Source: Spiroplasma corruscae
GTDB lineage: Bacteria; Bacillota_I; Bacilli_A; Mycoplasmatales; Mycoplasmataceae
Direction: 5' to 3'
DNA: 64,000 nucleotides
NCBI RefSeq assembly: GCF_002237575.1
Contig: NZ_CP022535.1
Span: forward strand, 186,001-250,000
Below the pieces are notes generated by a model that saw nothing but the letters and a program-made list of their open reading frames with translations, made no database searches and had not been told where the DNA came from. Shown piece by piece: positions 43,930 to 53,747 of this stretch; within the stretch, counting starts at the first letter, position 1, and each line of letters opens with the position of its first letter. Position numbers and translations under genes: made by a program.

Positions 43930-45498
43930 ATGAAAAAATTACTATGTTTATTAACGTCAATGAGTTTAGTTGCAACAACAAGTGCAGCAGTTGTATCTTG
44001 TGGAAATAGCGAACCTGCAACTGAGGAAACAAATACAGATAAAAAATCTGATTTAAGCACAATTACTGGAGATGATTTAAAATTATCACCAGCTGCAAAT
44101 GATGAAGCATCAGCAAAAAAAGCTGTACTCGATGCTGTTAATAAGAAGTTTAGCGGAAAGAACTATGTTGAAAGTGATTTATTATTTAGTGGGTTTAATG
44201 CAGCAACAAGCACTAGTAACCCAGGGTCAATTAAAGTTGAACCTGCTGCTAATAGCACAAAGTTAAAAGGATCTGCATCTTTTGAATTAGCTTATAATGA
44301 TACGTTATCTGATTTAAGCACAATTACTGGAGATGATTTAAAATTATCACCAGCTGCAAATAATGAAGCATTAGCAAAAAAAGCTGTACTTGATGCTGTT
44401 AATAAGAAGTTTAGCGGAAAGAATTATGTTGAAAGTGATTTATTATTTAGTGGGTTTAATGCAGCAACAAGCACTAGTAACCCAGGGTCAATTAAAGTTG
44501 AACCTGCTGCTAATAGCACAAAGTTAAAAGGATCTGCAACATTCTCACTAATTTTTAGAGAAGTTGTAGATTTAAGTACATTACCAGAAACTTCAAAAAT
44601 TGCACCTGTAGAAGATGAAAAACAAAGTAGTGCAGAAAGTTCTATAATCAAACAATTATTAATTAATGATAATTTAAGTGTTGAAAAAGACATAGATATT
44701 ACCTTTAGTAGCTTCGTCGCTCCATCAAAAAGCGATAAAAAAGATGGTTCTATAAAAGTTGTTGCTACTAGCACAAGTAAGTTAGTAAAAGGTGAAGTTA
44801 CTTTTACATTAAAAGAAGTAAAAGAAGTGGATTTAAAATTAGTTGATGATTTAATAAAAGGTGAAGGCGATTATGCAATGTTTAATCCAGCTATTTATAA
44901 AAAAGGCATAACAGTACCTGAAACAGAAGTTGGAACTAAGGATGGAGTATTTAAATTAATTAAATCATATACAGAAAAACTCCTATTATTAGCTTCATTA
45001 ATAGGTATAAAAATAACTATTGATCAATTAGTTAATTTAGTTGATATAAATTATTTTGATGATGATAATGGCACTGTGCAACATGTTGAAGGTACTCAAA
45101 TTAAACTTGCAAAATTAACTGTTAAAAGTGGAATGGCTTATTCGATTGATGGGTATTATGTAAGAGGTGAGATAAACGCGAAAATTTTCAAACAAATTGA
45201 TATAAACACAGTAATAACTGATAAAACATTAAATATTAGTTGTGAAAAAGATGCAGAATTAGATGTGTTAGAAGAAGTATTAGCTGAAAAATATAATGAT
45301 TTTATTACAAGCAATAATGCTACCGTTGATATTTTTGGTTTAAGTGGTAATGATACTCTTAATTATACTAATGGTTCTCCAGAAAGTGGTGGGACTGCAA
45401 CAGTAATATTATTAGATTCTGAAGATGACATAAATAACTTTAACAATTTATTATCAGGTCCAATAACATTGACACTTAATGTTACTATAACTACTTAA
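43930..45498 (+). CDS. Surface lipoprotein with tandem 87-residue repeats
   Basis: 522 residues. Lipoprotein signal MKKLLCLLTSMSLVATTSAAVVSCG, lipid-attachment Cys at 24. After an acidic linker come two almost identical repeats beginning DLSTITGDDLKLSPAAN and a third diverged copy beginning DLSTLPETSKIAPVEDE; each covers 80-87 residues and ends in a strand such as GSIKV...KLKGSATFSL. The remaining ~240 residues are non-repetitive, helix then strands (GSPESGGTATVILLD). Unknown function; likely an exposed surface antigen or adhesin-like protein. Monocistronic with AAAGGAG site and its own terminator; flanked by gene-poor DNA. Confidence 0.88.
   Translation: MKKLLCLLTSMSLVATTSAAVVSCGNSEPATEETNTDKKSDLSTITGDDLKLSPAANDEASAKKAVLDAVNKKFSGKNYVESDLLFSGFNAATSTSNPGSIKVEPAANSTKLKGSASFELAYNDTLSDLSTITGDDLKLSPAANNEALAKKAVLDAVNKKFSGKNYVESDLLFSGFNAATSTSNPGSIKVEPAANSTKLKGSATFSLIFREVVDLSTLPETSKIAPVEDEKQSSAESSIIKQLLINDNLSVEKDIDITFSSFVAPSKSDKKDGSIKVVATSTSKLVKGEVTFTLKEVKEVDLKLVDDLIKGEGDYAMFNPAIYKKGITVPETEVGTKDGVFKLIKSYTEKLLLLASLIGIKITIDQLVNLVDINYFDDDNGTVQHVEGTQIKLAKLTVKSGMAYSIDGYYVRGEINAKIFKQIDINTVITDKTLNISCEKDAELDVLEEVLAEKYNDFITSNNATVDIFGLSGNDTLNYTNGSPESGGTATVILLDSEDDINNFNNLLSGPITLTLNVTITT
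44047..44538 (+). repeat. Tandem near-identical 231-bp repeats (261-bp period)
   Basis: Copy 1 spans 44047-44277 and copy 2 44308-44538. By eye they differ at only about four or five bases, two of them changing the protein (D/N and S/L near NDEASAKK vs NNEALAKK). The 30 bp between copies is not repeated after copy 2. The 261-bp period keeps the reading frame. Confidence 0.95.
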
Positions 45499-45568: not shown

Positions 45569-46058
45569 AAATTAGCTATATATAATATTTAACTCATCGT
45601 ATTCTAAAACACCATTAATTATATGCTATTATTTAATAAACTATGTAAATTGATTATTTAGTTATTAAGTTAAATCAAGATTAATAATTAATTATATACC
45701 TAATTTGTTCTATAATAATTTACTTATTCTATATTAAGTTGATAAATTTATTTTACCTCATTATAAAAAGTACAATAATAGTTCAATAAATATATAATTT
45801 ATAATTAACATATAGTCTTGTATAATAGTAAAATAATAACCTACAATATTTTGTTAATAACCGTGTATTTTAATAAAGATTAATAATTATATTTTTAATT
45901 TGTTTGAATAACGATTATTATATCGTTAGTAAATTTCTGCAATAAAGCATTGTAAATATTTTATATTTATATACTATTATGCAAAATAATAAAAATACTT
46001 TATTTAAACTATTTTTTTAGTTAAAATAGATATATTAATACCAGAGGTGAATAATATA
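45569..46058. other. AT-rich intergenic region without recognised features
   Basis: About 490 bp, almost entirely A/T with stops in all frames. No gene, RNA or strong hairpin seen. It includes the leader of the next gene; no -10/-35 pair is clear. Confidence 0.6.
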
Positions 46059-46508
46059 ATGAGTGCATATGAAAAAGTAGATTGACTCTTAAACAAAGGT
46101 GATGGAGTTCTTAATTATACAAAAGAAATGATGGATGACTACTTCTTAACAAAAAGTGAAAAAGGTATTATGGTTAATAAACTATTAAAAAAGAGTTTAT
46201 TAAATTATAATGGTCTGAATATTGATGGAATGTTATTAGTTGAAAGCTTCCCTAGAGATTTTATGTTTTCTAAAAACCCTTTTATCGACAAAGTTTTAAC
46301 TAAATTTGTAAAAGATTTTAAATATGATTATATAAATGCAATTTCTTATTTAGACTCACTTGAAATTAGACAAAATTTCTTGAATTTATGAATAAGACCA
46401 AAATCAGTTAACTTCATAAGAAACATGATCTATGAAATACTTGAAAATGAAAAGAATTCAAAAAAAACTAAAAAAGTACAAGAATTAGAGTTTAAGTTTA
46501 AATATTAG
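46059..46508 (+). CDS. Hypothetical helical protein
   Basis: 149 residues, unrecognised. ATG with AGAGGTG 7-8 nt upstream. It begins MSAYEKVDWLLNKGDGVLNYTKEMMDDYF and ends with a Lys-rich tail (EKNSKKTKKVQELEFKFKY). Probably an all-helical cytoplasmic protein; no signal or membrane segment. It has its own terminator and a clear ribosome site, which support it as a real gene. TGA-Trp at 46082 and 46388. Confidence 0.75.
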
Positions 46509-46529: not shown

Positions 46530-46608
46530 CTATGAAATAGTTTTTATTTTATTCTAATAGATAATAGTGTAAAATACTAATATGTATAGCGTAAAAGGGG
46601 CATAAATC

Positions 46609-48102
46609 ATGGAATTTATTTTATTTAATAATAGTAAAAACTTAAAAGGTATAGTTGATGATGTCTTCGTTAAAGAAGGCCAACCAATAAATAAGGGCGA
46701 TTTATTGACTACTATTTCAACTCAGTTAGAAAAGGTAGAAATAAAATCTCCAATTAATGGAGTTGTAAAAAATATATTTATAATTGATTCATTGATTGTT
46801 TCTTGTAACGATAAGTTATTTGAGTTAGTTACTCATGATGAACTAATGGAACTTGTTAGAGAACCAAAAAATATTAATGATACTCTAAAAGAAGGACTTG
46901 ATGAATTTAATTATTTTGATAATTATGAAGAAGTTGAAACAACACCAGCTGTTGAAAAACTAGAAAAAAAATTAGAAGAACAAACAATTGATACAAATAA
47001 TAAAAATAATGACCAATTAACATTTGATTCAAGTAAATTTAATAAAAAAAGTTCTGAAGTTAGTGGTATTGAAAGCCATATTTTGAATAAAAATAAAGTA
47101 CAAATAAATGATTCTATCACTCAAGAATTAAGTTTTTTTAATAACACATCATTAGGCATGGGTGAAAAAGTAATTAAAGAAGACACTAACAATTTTTTAG
47201 CAAGATTTAGAGATAATCAAGAAAATAAAGAAGCTATTAAAAATGATAATAATAATGAAAAAATTAAGTTTATAGAAAAATTGCATCAAAGACAGAATGA
47301 AAACTTTGATAAAAAGCAAGAACATCAAGAGTTTAGAAAATCAGTTGATAGTATTAGTTCTCATGAAAAAATAGTATCAAATGAAGAAACTGGTGTTTTG
47401 AAAAATTTAAACTCATTAAACGAGTTCTCTAAAAATAATGTCAACTTAGATGATAAGAAAATTAACAATAATAATCATAAAGAAATTAATAGTATTGATT
47501 TAACAACAAATAATATTGAGAAAGTATCAAAAGAAGAAATAATTAAAACAAGTATAAGTAAATCTTCAGTAAGTTTATCATTAGATATAAATCAATTACT
47601 AAACCTTCAAGACATATTATATAAACCTTCAATTGATAAAGATGTAGAAATTAATGTATCAACACTTCTTACAAAAGCGATAGTTTATTCAATGTCTTCA
47701 TCTGGTGCATTCTTTAAAAACAACCAAAAATTTATAAATATAATGCAAAAGTTTAAAAATAGCCAAAAAAGAAAATGTACGTCAATAAATAATTTAGGTA
47801 TTAGTATATTTAATTTTAAGAAAGAGCTTGATAAATCTAATAATTTTAATCTAGAATCAAAATACATGATATATGACTTTCTTAACTTTAATAACTATAT
47901 ATCAAGTTGTTTATTAAATGATGAAACGATTTTTAGTATATCTTTAAATAACATAAATCAATTATTAAAAAATGATGGACTCTTATATAATTCTTTAAGC
48001 ATAAATATTTCTTTTGATAATAATGAATTAAGTTTTGAAAATATAATGTCCTTTATAGATAGTTTTACAGAAGTAATTGAAAATCCAGGATATTTAATCT
48101 AA
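46609..48102 (+). CDS. Degenerate E2-like protein (lipoyl-domain and acyltransferase folds, active residues lost)
   Basis: 497 residues. Residues ~10-75 read as a biotinyl/lipoyl domain (GIVDDVFVKEGQPINKGDLL ... VEIKSPINGVVKNIF). At the lipoyl-lysine site TDKATVEIPSP becomes TQLEKVEIKSP, so the modified Lys is Leu40. Residues ~85-315 are low-complexity and charged. The last ~180 follow the E2 catalytic domain: SLSLDINQLLNLQDIL, VSTLLTKAIVYSM, NNLGISIFNF, and at the end LSINISFDNNELSFENIMSF ... VIENPGYLI, where the catalytic HRxxDG is NNELSF. It therefore looks like a structural relative of 2-oxo-acid dehydrogenase E2, not an active enzyme. Other PDH subunits are not adjacent. Confidence 0.8.
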   Translation: MEFILFNNSKNLKGIVDDVFVKEGQPINKGDLLTTISTQLEKVEIKSPINGVVKNIFIIDSLIVSCNDKLFELVTHDELMELVREPKNINDTLKEGLDEFNYFDNYEEVETTPAVEKLEKKLEEQTIDTNNKNNDQLTFDSSKFNKKSSEVSGIESHILNKNKVQINDSITQELSFFNNTSLGMGEKVIKEDTNNFLARFRDNQENKEAIKNDNNNEKIKFIEKLHQRQNENFDKKQEHQEFRKSVDSISSHEKIVSNEETGVLKNLNSLNEFSKNNVNLDDKKINNNNHKEINSIDLTTNNIEKVSKEEIIKTSISKSSVSLSLDINQLLNLQDILYKPSIDKDVEINVSTLLTKAIVYSMSSSGAFFKNNQKFINIMQKFKNSQKRKCTSINNLGISIFNFKKELDKSNNFNLESKYMIYDFLNFNNYISSCLLNDETIFSISLNNINQLLKNDGLLYNSLSINISFDNNELSFENIMSFIDSFTEVIENPGYLI

Positions 48103-48121: not shown

Positions 48122-49087
48122 ATGATAAATGAATTAAATTTAGAAAATAAAATTGTCAATTTAACAGCAAGGATTGAAAGGGTTGTACTATCAACAGGTA
48201 ATAATGGTTTAAATTATTTGATTTTACATCTAATTGATCGAACTGGAAGAGTTGAAGGTAGACTATGAAATGTAAATGATGAAGATATTTGTAATCTTAA
48301 GGCGGGTACTATCATAAGAATTGATGCCAATATTAACAGTTATAGGCATCAACTTCAATTAAAAATTAACAATTATGTAGTAATAAACGAAGAAGAGTTT
48401 GAAGAGTACAAATTATCTCACGATATGTTCTCAATTAATGCTCCTCTTAATATAAATGATAAGTTTAAAGAGTTGCTAGGCTTTGTAGAATCGCTTAAAA
48501 ACCATAGTTATAAGAAAGTTACCTTAGAGCTTTTAAAAGAGCATGAAGAGCATTATAAAACCTATCCAGCAGCAGTTAGTATACATCATAATGTTGTTGG
48601 CGGTTTATTTTGACATAGTAGTTCGATGCTGGAAGCGGCAAAGGCACTTAATAAAGTTTATACATTTATTGAAATAGATTGAGATTTAGTATATTGTGGG
48701 GTTATTCTACATGACATTGGTAAGGTTGTTGAATTAGAAGGAAAGAACGCTAGTGAGTATACTCCAATTGGGAAACTTATTGGACATATTTCAATTGGTA
48801 ATAATTTTGTATTTGAAAAAGCAAGAGAGCTAAATATTGAAAGTGATGATATTGTTAAATTACAACATGTTATATTATCAAGTCATGGTAAAAATGAGTT
48901 TGGTTCACCAATTGAACCATTATTGGTTGAAAGCATAATAATTTCTACATTAGATAGCCTTGATGCAAGATTATACAGAGTTAATGAAGAAATAAAAAAG
49001 GTATCTCATAATAATTGGACACCAAGAATATTATCTGAAGATGGAAGAAGTTTTTTAAGACATTTTGAAAACGTCAAAAAAAATTAG
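48122..49087 (+). CDS. yhaM: 3'-5' exoribonuclease YhaM
   Basis: 321 residues. N-terminal OB-fold (NLTARIERVVLSTGNNGLNYLILHLIDRTGRVEGRLWNVND), then an HD hydrolase domain: SIHHNVVGGLFWHSSSMLEAA, CGVILHDIGKVVELEG and QHVILSSHGKNEFGSP with the metal-binding His/Asp residues. The C-terminus is SLDARLYRVNEEIKK. Known activity: a 3'-5' exonuclease on RNA and DNA with Mn2+. AAAGGAG site 7 nt upstream. Converges with the HIT gene, overlapping it by 4 nt. Confidence 0.95.
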
Positions 49088-49530: not shown

Positions 49531-49558
49531 AAAAAAACCTTTTAAAAAGGTTTTTTTT
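49531..49558. terminator. Hairpin downstream of the paired lipoproteins
   Basis: A-run, CCTTT...AAAGG stem, T-run, next to the stop of the leftward lipoprotein gene. It lies in the HIT gene's upstream region, so HIT transcription must start inside or left of it. Confidence 0.75.
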
Positions 49559-51389
49559 ATTCATCGTAGTCATCTTCATTCTTGATATATTTACCAATTT
49601 CATTATATAAACCAGCATAGTATACTAAATCTTTATCTAAATATAATGAATATAGTGATGTTTTAGCTAGTTCTGAAGAAGTTGAATCATTTGAAACCAA
49701 ATATTTTAATTGGTTCAACATTGAATCCCTTTTTGAACTATCCGCAATTAAGTCTTGAATATCTTTTGTATGTAATTTTTCGTTAATTGGTCTATCTCAA
49801 ATATCTTTAAATTCAGTTTTGTTTGATACTGATTTACCCAAGTTTATATCTATTGTATCTGCTTGATCTTTACCTTTTATTTGGTATATATTAGCACCAC
49901 TACCACCCAATAGTTCAATCATATAGACTGGAAGTACAACGACTATTTCTTCGTAGTTACCATTATCCTTATCAGTAAATGAGTACTTTTCTGGGCTTTT
50001 TAAGATAATTCCAGGACCATTATTTCAACTTTTTACAGCAGACTCGTAATTAGCTCCAGAAATAGGCGAATCACCAATAGAACTATCATTATTATAAATA
50101 GTAAATCCTTTAAAACCACCTTGACCAAAATATGGATCATATGAATTACTATCATCTATAACAGGGTTATAAGGGTTAGTAGGTGTTTCTTCTTTTGATT
50201 GTTCTCCTAATTTTGACAATATCTCTAATATATCGGTAATACTTGTTTCACTTGGACTTAACATTTCACCATTGGCAGGGTTAATAAATTTCTTTAACTT
50301 AGTTTTTATTTCACTTTCAAGATCTAAATCCTTTTTAGTATTATCATATTTTACTGTTCAAACCATTTTAACATTTGTTTTTAACTTTTCATTAGTATTA
50401 TTACTTCAAGATTGTGTTTTAGAGAAAATTGGTGATGCTGTATTTAAATATACACCATTTTTAACCCCGCTTTCACTAGTGCCTTCAGATTTAATTTTAA
50501 ACATATTGGCATCTAAGAATGATTTTGTAAGTAGGTTAGTATTAATATCTTCTAATAGTTTAGACTCAAAATATTGTTGAAATCTAATAAATAAAGCAGT
50601 TTTTGCAGACACTCTTTTTGTACAATCTTTATCAACATAGAACTTAGTTTTATCTTCTTCTTCTATTTTTGAATATTCGGCTGTCAAATCATTAATAGTT
50701 GGTAAGTTTGATGTTTGTATATCTTCATCTTTATCTGTAATACCAGGAACTATTTCACCTGAGTATTTTCAAAGAAGCGATTTACCTTTACCATTTTTTT
50801 TGAAATAAATTGCTTTATCATTTACATTAGAAGGGTCTAATTCAGCAGTTTTACCACTTAGCTTACCATCATTATCATTTAGAAGTTTTACGCTTGTTTT
50901 GCTTACTAGATTTAAATCATATAAGTATTTTGCTTGAATATTAAAGTCATAATTTTCATTGCTTGAAAGGGCTTTAGTATATTCTAAAAATAAATTATCT
51001 TCAGCAATTGATCTAGTATCTTCTGAATACAAATCTCTAAATGATTGTTCTATTGAACCATTATCTTCTTTACCGTATTTTGAGCTTCAACCTAAGTCAC
51101 TTATTTGTTTATTTTTTGAATCAAAACTATATTGTCTAGATATCAATTCATTAATCATATTTACAACAATTTTAGTTGCATCATCTGAACTAAAGAATGA
51201 GCCAAAATCAATATCCGCAAGAGAAGAATCACCAGAAATACTTGCTAATAGTTTCTTAGCAAGATTTGAATCTAGTTTTGGTTTATCTGGTCTAACATCT
51301 CATGAGTTATCTTTATTACAAGATACTACCATTGATGATGATGAACCTATTATACTTAATGCAGTAAGTCATCCTATTAGTTTTTTCAT
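49557..51389 (-). CDS. Large lipoprotein, second of a coupled pair
   Basis: 610 residues. Signal MKKLIGWLTALSIIGSSSSMVVSCN, lipid Cys at 24. The mature part is hydrophilic and helical early (ANLAKKLLASISGD ... EQSFRDLYSEDTRSIAEDNLFLEYTKAL), with a central strand-rich part and a C-terminal block (EEIVVVLPVYMIELLGGSG, ADTIDINLGKS). The architecture, including N-terminal helices, resembles the upstream lipoprotein at 51389-53656, so they are probably ancient duplicates. Its start codon overlaps the upstream stop (TAATG) and its AGAGGTGATG ribosome site lies inside that gene. Exposed on the outer face of the membrane; function unknown. Confidence 0.88.
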
Positions 51390-53656
51390 TATTCATCACC
51401 TCTTATAATAGTAGTATTTTTAAAATACATACTAACTAATTCATTATTAATTAAGTTTATAGAAACGTTACTTCTTGTAGTGGGTGTTTCATCACCTGGT
51501 TTTCAAAACTTTTCATTAGTTTTCTTTTTCAAATTATCATTAAATGTATCACCATTTTTAATTATTTGTTTTGGATATTTTGATTTATCTGATTGTTTTA
51601 ATATTTCTTTATTTCTTTTATTAAATTCATTAACAAATGCATTGCTTGGAGCGGAACTTATTATTGATTTTATAGTTGAAAGCATTGAACTAAATTTATC
51701 ACCTAAGTTATAAGCATTTCCATTAGAATCATCAATTGAGTTAAATACTATAAATCTATTTATGAAATCTCTCTGGTCTTTAGCTTTATCTGTACTTATT
51801 GTATAGAAGTAATCAAAAACAGATGAAGATCAACTATATTTTGAAGCATCAGTTGATGATTCGATTTTAACTCAGTCTTTAACTTCTGACATTGCATCAA
51901 AGCTAGTAGCGGCACCGTCTAAACCTTTGATTAATGATGTGTTTACTAAATATTGCTCATAAGGATTTGTTATATGACTGTTAAGTTTTGTGAAGTAATT
52001 TTGATCATTTTCAACTTCAGATTGGATATATGCTATTTTTTCATTATTTGTTAATTTGTGGAAATTCTTAAACTTTTCTAATTCAGATAGTGTATCTTCA
52101 TTAATTATTCCATCTTCGACATTGACACCTTTAGTACTTTCTAATTTACTATCAATATTATCTTTTAAATACTTGTAACCGTCAATATTAATGATGTGAA
52201 GTCCTGATGTATCAACTAAAATTAATCTTCCATCATTTAAAACACCATAAAAGTTTTTGCTCTCACTTGCGCTTCTATTAATTTTTGATATAAAATTTAG
52301 TTCGTTTGTTTGCTCGTCACTTCTTAAATCCACACCGCTTATTTTATCGAGTTTTCCCTCTTTATCAATATTAAGAACATAATCATAAACAGCACTTCTT
52401 AAGTCTTGAGTAAAGTCTGATGAATCAGATAATGTTAATAATTTATCATACTTTTTAATAGTTCCTTTACCATCTAATAACCCTGATATAGAACCTTCTG
52501 ACATGTATTTTCTTCATTTAGAATCTGTAACACCTTTGTCTTCTTTACCTTTTAATTCATTAAATAACTTTGCAATATCTGCTTGGTAGTCTGTATAAGT
52601 TTTATTTTCAAAGCTACTTGCACTAACACCATCATCAAATTTATGATCATCAGCAAAAGGGATTGTGATTTCACTAATTGCTAATGGTGCTTGAGTAGTA
52701 TATCATTGATCTAAAAAGAATCTTTGAGAGTTACTTACAAATCCTTTTCTTGAAGTAGCATCAGTAACACTTAATTTTGTTAAATCTAATGGCACATCGG
52801 TTTTCATTTCTGTATAATTTTGACCTATCTCACCTTTTAATTTATCTCAATTTGTTTTATTAGCAACCATTGTGTTGGTTCATTTCTTTGAACTATCTTG
52901 TTTTGAGTTAAATATTTGGTTTAAAACATTAGGATCTGAATTAAAAATTGAGTTTAATTTTGTCTCATCATCTCCTGCGAGATATAAGTTTTTATACTTT
53001 TCTTGAACTGTTGTTTTTGAAACTCAAGTTACACCTTGTTGGTCTGTATTTAATAATATATCTAATAATATTTTTGACACATTATTAGATGAGTCGCTTA
53101 AAAGGATATCAGCTTTGTATTTTTGTTCTAAAAAGTCTCTATCCATATCTTTTGTGTCAGTTTGATAAACACTATACTTATTAACAAGCATTTTATTTCA
53201 TTCTTCTTCTCACTTACCTGCATGTTCATTTTTGTATTTATCTTTTTCATTTTGTATTTGTCTATCAACGTCAGCTGATAAAGTTTTAAATCTATCAATT
53301 AAAATATTTTCTAAATTATTTAAATAATATGGATTATTTTGGTCTAATTTATATTCAGTTTTACCATCAGCACCATAATTAGTACTTGCATTAGCCATAA
53401 CCGATAAATTAAACATTTTTAATAAATCTATTGAGAATTTTTCTCTGTTTTTTACTCCTGAACTAGCATTAATTAATTTATCTAAAACGTCATTAGCTTT
53501 AATTTGTGCTTTCCCGTCCAAACTATTTAAAAATTGCACCAAAATAGAGTTACCATCAACATCTTTTTGGTCATATTTTGAAGTACACGCAACTACAACT
53601 TGTGCAGTTGTAACTATCATTGAAACACTGCTTAATAGTGTTAGTAACTTTTTCAA
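51389..53656 (-). CDS. Large lipoprotein, first of a coupled pair
   Basis: 755 residues. The TTG start at 53656 gives MKKLLTLLSSVSMIVTTAQVVVACTSKYD with lipid Cys at 24; AAGGAG is 8 nt upstream. A GTG five codons earlier would overlap the ribosome site. The mature protein is hydrophilic with long helices rich in Asn, Lys and Asp (YYLNNLENILIDRFKTLSADVDRQIQNEKDKYKNE) and later strand-like segments (FYGVLNDGRLILVDTSGLHIINIDGY). No known domain identified. A short inverted repeat (53668-53673 / 53679-53684) covers part of the ribosome site. Multiple TGA-Trp codons. Confidence 0.88.
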
Positions 53657-53747
53657 ATCTTTCACTCCTTGATTTTTTATCAAGATAATTATAATAAAAA
53701 AATAGTCCAAATATTATATTATTTAAATTTAATTTTTTTAATAAAAA

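Follow-up and report, generated by a model that had tools for sequence, protein, structure and literature searches.

An old paralogue of pyruvate dehydrogenase E2 in Spiroplasma that lacks both catalytic sites and possibly works as an oligomeric scaffold

Background

E2 subunits of pyruvate dehydrogenase (PdhC) combine a lipoyl domain (PF00364), a peripheral subunit-binding domain (PF02817), which binds E1 and E3, and a catalytic core (PF00198). The closest described protein in which this plan has been turned to architecture rather than acyl transfer is E3BP (protein X) of mammalian and fungal pyruvate dehydrogenase, an E2 paralogue carrying a degenerate E2 domain after a flexible linker (PMC2880790, PMC10156792). 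Known pseudo-E2s of this kind remain members of the dehydrogenase complex and still carry the lipoyl arm; E3BP retains both its lipoylated domain and the subunit-binding domain. In the human complex, hydrophobic ball-and-socket contacts join the E2 trimers, and E3BP lacks these inter-trimer anchor residues (PMC2880790). A precedent from the same kind of organism as ours is fibril of Spiroplasma, described in PMC9710875 as a nucleosidase turned structural protein. No described pseudo-E2 of Spiroplasma was found in the literature.

We analysed a stretch of 64,000 nucleotides from Spiroplasma corruscae (contig NZ_CP022535.1, positions 186,001 to 250,000), hereafter 'the window'. One of its genes belongs to a family of E2 paralogues, 'family 3', in which both catalytic sites are lost in every orthologue while the two end domains are under selection. 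It shares with PdhC common descent and the order of lipoyl-like domain, linker and core, but lacks both catalytic residues and PF02817, lies outside the pdh operon and forms its own clade; none of the three marks of an active E2 (lipoyl-lysine, HxxxDG, PF02817) was found in it. With E3BP it shares the inactive core, whereas the lysine and PF02817 that E3BP keeps are missing, and the C-terminal tail, at the place of the anchor residues that human E3BP lacks, varies less than anything else in the core. Here, two old paralogues devoid of both catalytic sites and of the partner-binding domain stand beside a normal PdhC. We consider it somewhat probable, on the comparisons reported below, that the window gene is an ancient non-catalytic E2 paralogue that works as an oligomeric scaffold.

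The gene, its lipoyl-like head and its linker

The gene occupies positions 46609 to 48102 of the plus strand (ATG at 46609, stop codon included and ending at 48102) and encodes 497 amino acids. Under code 4 the frame needs no TGA codon, and the clean frame reported in an earlier, sequence-only reading of this DNA was borne out. The good expression signals that it also proposed are not supported: a Shine-Dalgarno-like stretch, AAAAGGGG, can be read 5' of the ATG (46593 to 46600, plus strand), but promoter-like matches around the gene (20, compared to 22.1 expected) showed no excess over chance.

Residues 1 to 84 (46609 to 46860, plus strand) correspond to an N-terminal lipoyl-like head, assigned to the barrel-sandwich type from its sequence. 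Residues 14 to 73 match PF00364 (Biotin_lipoyl) with an E value of 1.3e-6, above the curated cut-off, and the same model matched all 31 orthologues scanned; HlyD-type models matched more weakly. Within the window genus, g1, the head is the best-conserved part of the protein. At the lipoyl-lysine position the alignment places Leu40 (codon 46726 to 46728, plus strand), as the sequence-only reading had it, in the context TQLEKV instead of TDKVSS. Lysine is found in this column in none of the 38 aligned orthologues (L in 18, N in 10, V in 3, S in 3, and M, G, R and F in 1 each).

Most members of family 3 have a lysine or arginine one or two residues beyond this site, and a hairpin lysine shifted in this way could in principle still be lipoylated or biotinylated, the protein then being an acyl or carboxyl carrier. 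We regard this as very improbable: lysine is invariant at no position, members reading TQLETF, TQLESV or TQVESF have neither residue at +1 or +2, and the acyltransferase site is gone as well. Moreover, a review of lipoyl-domain mutants holds the correct position of the lysine at the tip of the turn to be crucial (PMC6270654).

The head is followed, from about residue 85 to residue 312 (46861 to 47544, plus strand), by the long charged linker that had been noted at the outset. It is probably disordered, and its length and sequence vary between orthologues; in the window protein, residues 89 to 312 (224 residues) comprise 34% K, R, D or E and 73% polar residues. The peripheral subunit-binding domain PF02817 was unmatched in all 31 orthologues scanned at E 0.01, yet it is readily found in the PdhC of the same genome (2.2e-13). 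The proposal that the protein could serve as a binding core for E1 and E3 is therefore not supported, and binding through a subunit-binding domain was rejected because these 31 orthologues showed none.

Descent of the C-terminal domain from E2

The C-terminal part, from about residue 313 to residue 497 (47545 to 48099, plus strand), is a degenerate E2 catalytic-type domain, as judged from hhalign comparison to PdhC and from the tree. PF00198 was unmatched by the window protein itself, and Pfam and PDB sequence searches with this protein alone returned no E2 core, so that the E2 reading first given to this part needed relatives. The two AlphaFold models obtained from the window's own single sequence were of poor quality, with mean pLDDT values of 35.5 and 53.4. 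Through the orthologues, the reading proved correct: PF00198 matched 20 of 31 (best 2.2e-43), and a profile of the C-terminal domain from genus g1 aligned with genuine PdhC over most of the domain length with a probability of 97 to 98% (E 7e-11 to 4e-13), compared to 0.1 to 0.3% for reversed-profile controls. A g1 profile built without the three sequences of the window trio recovered the window protein at 5e-26. The three-sequence trio profile alone gave no match to family 2, the second pseudo-E2 family described below, and the E2 claim for the window protein thus rests on its orthologues. By profile comparison, the descent of the window family from the E2 family is supported.

In place of the catalytic HxxxDG motif, residues 471 to 476 (48019 to 48036, plus strand) read NNELSF, as had been pointed out from the sequence. 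Among the 38 orthologues, the histidine and the glycine of the motif are never present, and the aspartate is kept in 14, mostly of genus g8. The share of PdhC-invariant positions still kept is 60% in family 2, 41% in family 3 of g8 and about 20% in family 3 elsewhere. The positions kept include core-fold sites: in family 3, the core F, K and A are retained at 88 to 100% and the C-terminal Pro and Leu at 96 to 100%, compared to 0% for the catalytic His and Gly, two residues that family 2 has lost as well.

The protein ends in NPGYLI (48082 to 48099, plus strand; NPGxLI/L family-wide), positioned where E2 cores have their inter-trimer anchor. In all 38 orthologues the last residues are [NS]P[GA] and three hydrophobic ones, and PdhC and both pseudo-E2 families share the proline without exception. 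Judging from its position and from what is generally known of E2 cores, this tail is presumably the same inter-trimer anchor as in those cores.

Orthologues and selection

Orthologues were collected by a protein search over 60 genomes of the window's taxonomic family. They were found in g1 and in genera g4, g6, g8 and g9, and the alignment comprises the 38 found by homology. The relatives were taken to be spiroplasmas from their use of code 4, their numerous MreB genes and their gene content. A thirty-ninth, in genome G005 (genus g5), was missed by profile searches and recognised by position: because the slot upstream of the exoribonuclease gene yhaM holds a diverged member of 740-odd residues (L151:751-3003), with DQSELIV at the turn of the head and a long coiled-coil-like linker, it was counted as a positional orthologue. 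Family 3 is absent from genomes G050 and G051, and in G025 its copy is broken (L098:5500-6650), next to an unbroken family 2 gene elsewhere in the genome. These MreB-bearing lineages can do without the gene, and G025 amounts to a natural knock-out of family 3 in an MreB-bearing genome.

The ratio dN/dS (omega) was calculated for 13 pairs with a C-terminal dS above 0.05, the two closest pairs being uninformative. For the C-terminal domain, omega was 0.01 to 0.22 in 10 of the 13 pairs and 0.34 to 0.47 in the other three; for the head it was 0.03 to 0.33, except for one pair at 0.42, and for the linker 0.16 to 0.56. For the most part, the two folded domains evolve under purifying selection. In the lineage to which the window belongs, the head remains constrained (omega 0.12 to 0.15 in the window's closest pairs) and the core changes quickly, its omega being about 0.46 at a dS near 1.

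The loss of both active sites and the fast evolution of the C-terminal domain in this lineage are also what a recent decay of a duplicated pdhC might produce. This explanation has next to no probability, and it was ruled out by the orthologues together with dN/dS. The loss is fixed, neither catalytic site being kept in any orthologue; the frame is open in 38 genomes, and the family is an old monophyletic clade under purifying selection and with a constant tail. True decay looks different, as exemplified by the broken copy of G025. The conserved structural or regulatory role suggested by the sequence-only reading stands, both sites being lost while the domains are kept under selection.

A second pseudo-E2 family and the pyruvate dehydrogenase complex

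Elsewhere in the same genome there is an active-type pdhC with intact motifs and a subunit-binding domain, clustered with E1-beta-like and E3-like genes. The third E2-type gene of this genome lies outside the window (C1:154258-157218; L102:5259-8216) and represents family 2. Its product, of 986 aa, has a lysine-less lipoyl-like head, a Q-rich linker of about 650 residues and an E2 core with the motif DQRIIDA. The head is only weakly assigned: PF00364 matched a single member, at 0.0079, and an hhalign comparison with family 3 gave a probability of 15.5%, with reversed controls at 0.2%.

Family 2 resembles the window family in its lysine-less lipoyl-like head, long linker, inactive core and nearly identical set of genomes. 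It differs in being longer (about 890 to 1075 aa, shorter in G050 and G051), in having a highly conserved core (about 80 to 98% identity across g1), in keeping the Asp and Arg of the motif, and in occurring in every MreB-rich genome. In a FastTree of core domains, family 2 (support 0.90) and family 3 (0.997) are separate from PdhC, and a split supported at 0.956 sets the two together apart from PdhC. In G050 (L100:5543-7510) and G051 (L101:5454-7052), the family 2 protein begins only beyond the point where the head would be. That the two genomes without family 3 also lack the family 2 head is as expected if both families act together.

The window protein might instead belong to the pyruvate dehydrogenase complex as a regulatory or architectural subunit, its degenerate core co-assembling with PdhC trimers, as E3BP does, and tuning the size or activity of the complex. 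The common fold family, the intact PdhC in the same genome, the example of E3BP with its degenerate E2 domain, and the proximity of family 2 to pta-ackA-like genes in some genomes all agree with this idea. We nevertheless find it unlikely, as the gene stands outside the pdh operon and none of the 31 orthologues scanned has a subunit-binding domain. In addition, 16 related genomes keep PdhC without any pseudo-E2, and the retention of PdhC-invariant positions outside g8 is low. The annotation 'E2 subunit' in these genomes is no evidence of an extra dehydrogenase complex.

Distribution, MreB and a possible scaffold

Family 2 was detected in 42 of the 298 genomes of an order-level sample, all within the window's taxonomic family; in a class-level sample beyond that family, one weak partial match was the sole result. 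Genomes with 4 to 9 matches to MreB models reaching E < 1e-120 were called MreB-rich, and are probably those of helical spiroplasmas; in the other 18 genomes of the taxonomic family the matches were weaker (best 2e-61). Family 2 is present in 42 of 42 MreB-rich and 0 of 18 MreB-poor genomes, and family 3 in 39 of 42 MreB-rich genomes, the positional orthologue of G005 included; both paralogues are kept in almost every MreB-rich genome of that taxonomic family. In the YhaM tree, the 18 MreB-poor genomes come out as a single clade nested among the others. The link with MreB therefore amounts to about one co-loss, unreplicated, and the co-occurrence is suggestive only.

If the window gene encodes an oligomeric scaffold, its C-terminal domain would still assemble into trimers or larger bodies by means of the kept tail, with several pseudo-lipoyl heads extended on flexible linkers. 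Each head, no longer carrying acyl groups, would bind a fixed partner. That the core assembles in this way is hinted at, in the sequence, by the conservation of the C-terminal tail. As to the partner, the confinement of both pseudo-E2 families to MreB-bearing genomes hints, more weakly, that it belongs to the cell machinery of MreB-bearing spiroplasmas.

A more specific and doubtful proposal is that helical spiroplasmas turned two duplicated E2s into a paired non-enzymatic scaffold of MreB-based shape or motility. If true, fibril and the pseudo-E2s would be two cases in which metabolic enzymes were taken into cell architecture, fibril being the first. Their folds are unrelated, and fibril has been found in the ribbon, where a pseudo-E2 has not been reported: in proteomic work on the S. 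eriocheiris ribbon and cytoskeleton, which covers the main gel bands only, no E2-like protein figures in Table 1 of PMC5289999 or Table 2 of PMC9582952. Nor do these tables contain the sizes of the family 3 and family 2 proteins of genome G016 (621 aa and about 1000 aa), which may be that of the same species. When PF01048 was used to trace fibril, the matches listed all lay in nucleosidase-sized frames. As scaffolds, the two families would offer gene targets for work on the construction of wall-less helical cells, or on the organisation of their RNA decay.

The yhaM neighbourhood

The last of these possibilities arises from the gene next door. Starting 19 bp past the pseudo-E2 stop, yhaM (48122 to 49087, plus strand) encodes a 3'-5' exoribonuclease with an OB fold (PF01336) and an HD domain (PF01966); the NCBIfam YhaM model gave 253.8 bits, below its cut-off of 460. 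In 35 of the 38 family 3 loci, and also in G005, yhaM is the next gene downstream and shares the strand; the gap is 9 to 126 bp in all but one of the 35. The upstream neighbour is often trmFO in g1 and g9, and phosphoglucomutase in g8. Names of neighbours come from sequence reading and BLAST clusters, YhaM alone having been checked with family models.

Such an arrangement could mean that pseudo-E2 and YhaM are co-expressed and physically associated, with the E2-like core as a platform that presents or tethers YhaM or RNA. The adjacency persists across genera with differing upstream genes, and in G081, from another family of the order, phosphoglucomutase adjoins yhaM with nothing in between. 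RNA binding by an E2 has a precedent in DLA2 of Chlamydomonas (PMC3570535), but in that protein the proposed RNA-binding region overlaps with the site of E3 attachment, a site that was not found in family 3. Furthermore, yhaM is also present in genomes without a pseudo-E2, and adjacency can be inherited synteny. A scaffold of RNA turnover is, in our estimation, quite unlikely.

Other open reading frames were seen on either side of the two genes. A frame of 153 aa (46047-46508), with a GTG start and two TGA codons, gave a faint thioesterase-like match (E 0.038) and had no relative among neighbour loci; it is possibly no gene at all. A lipoprotein-like frame (43930-45498), located between the pseudo-E2 and a cutC-like gene, has two near-identical tandem modules (DLSTITGDDLKLSPAAN...), and no relative of it was found in the compared loci. 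Beyond yhaM and a HIT-like gene, two adjacent lipoprotein-like frames of 610 and 773 aa lie on the minus strand (49557-53710), and their order is kept in most g1 loci.
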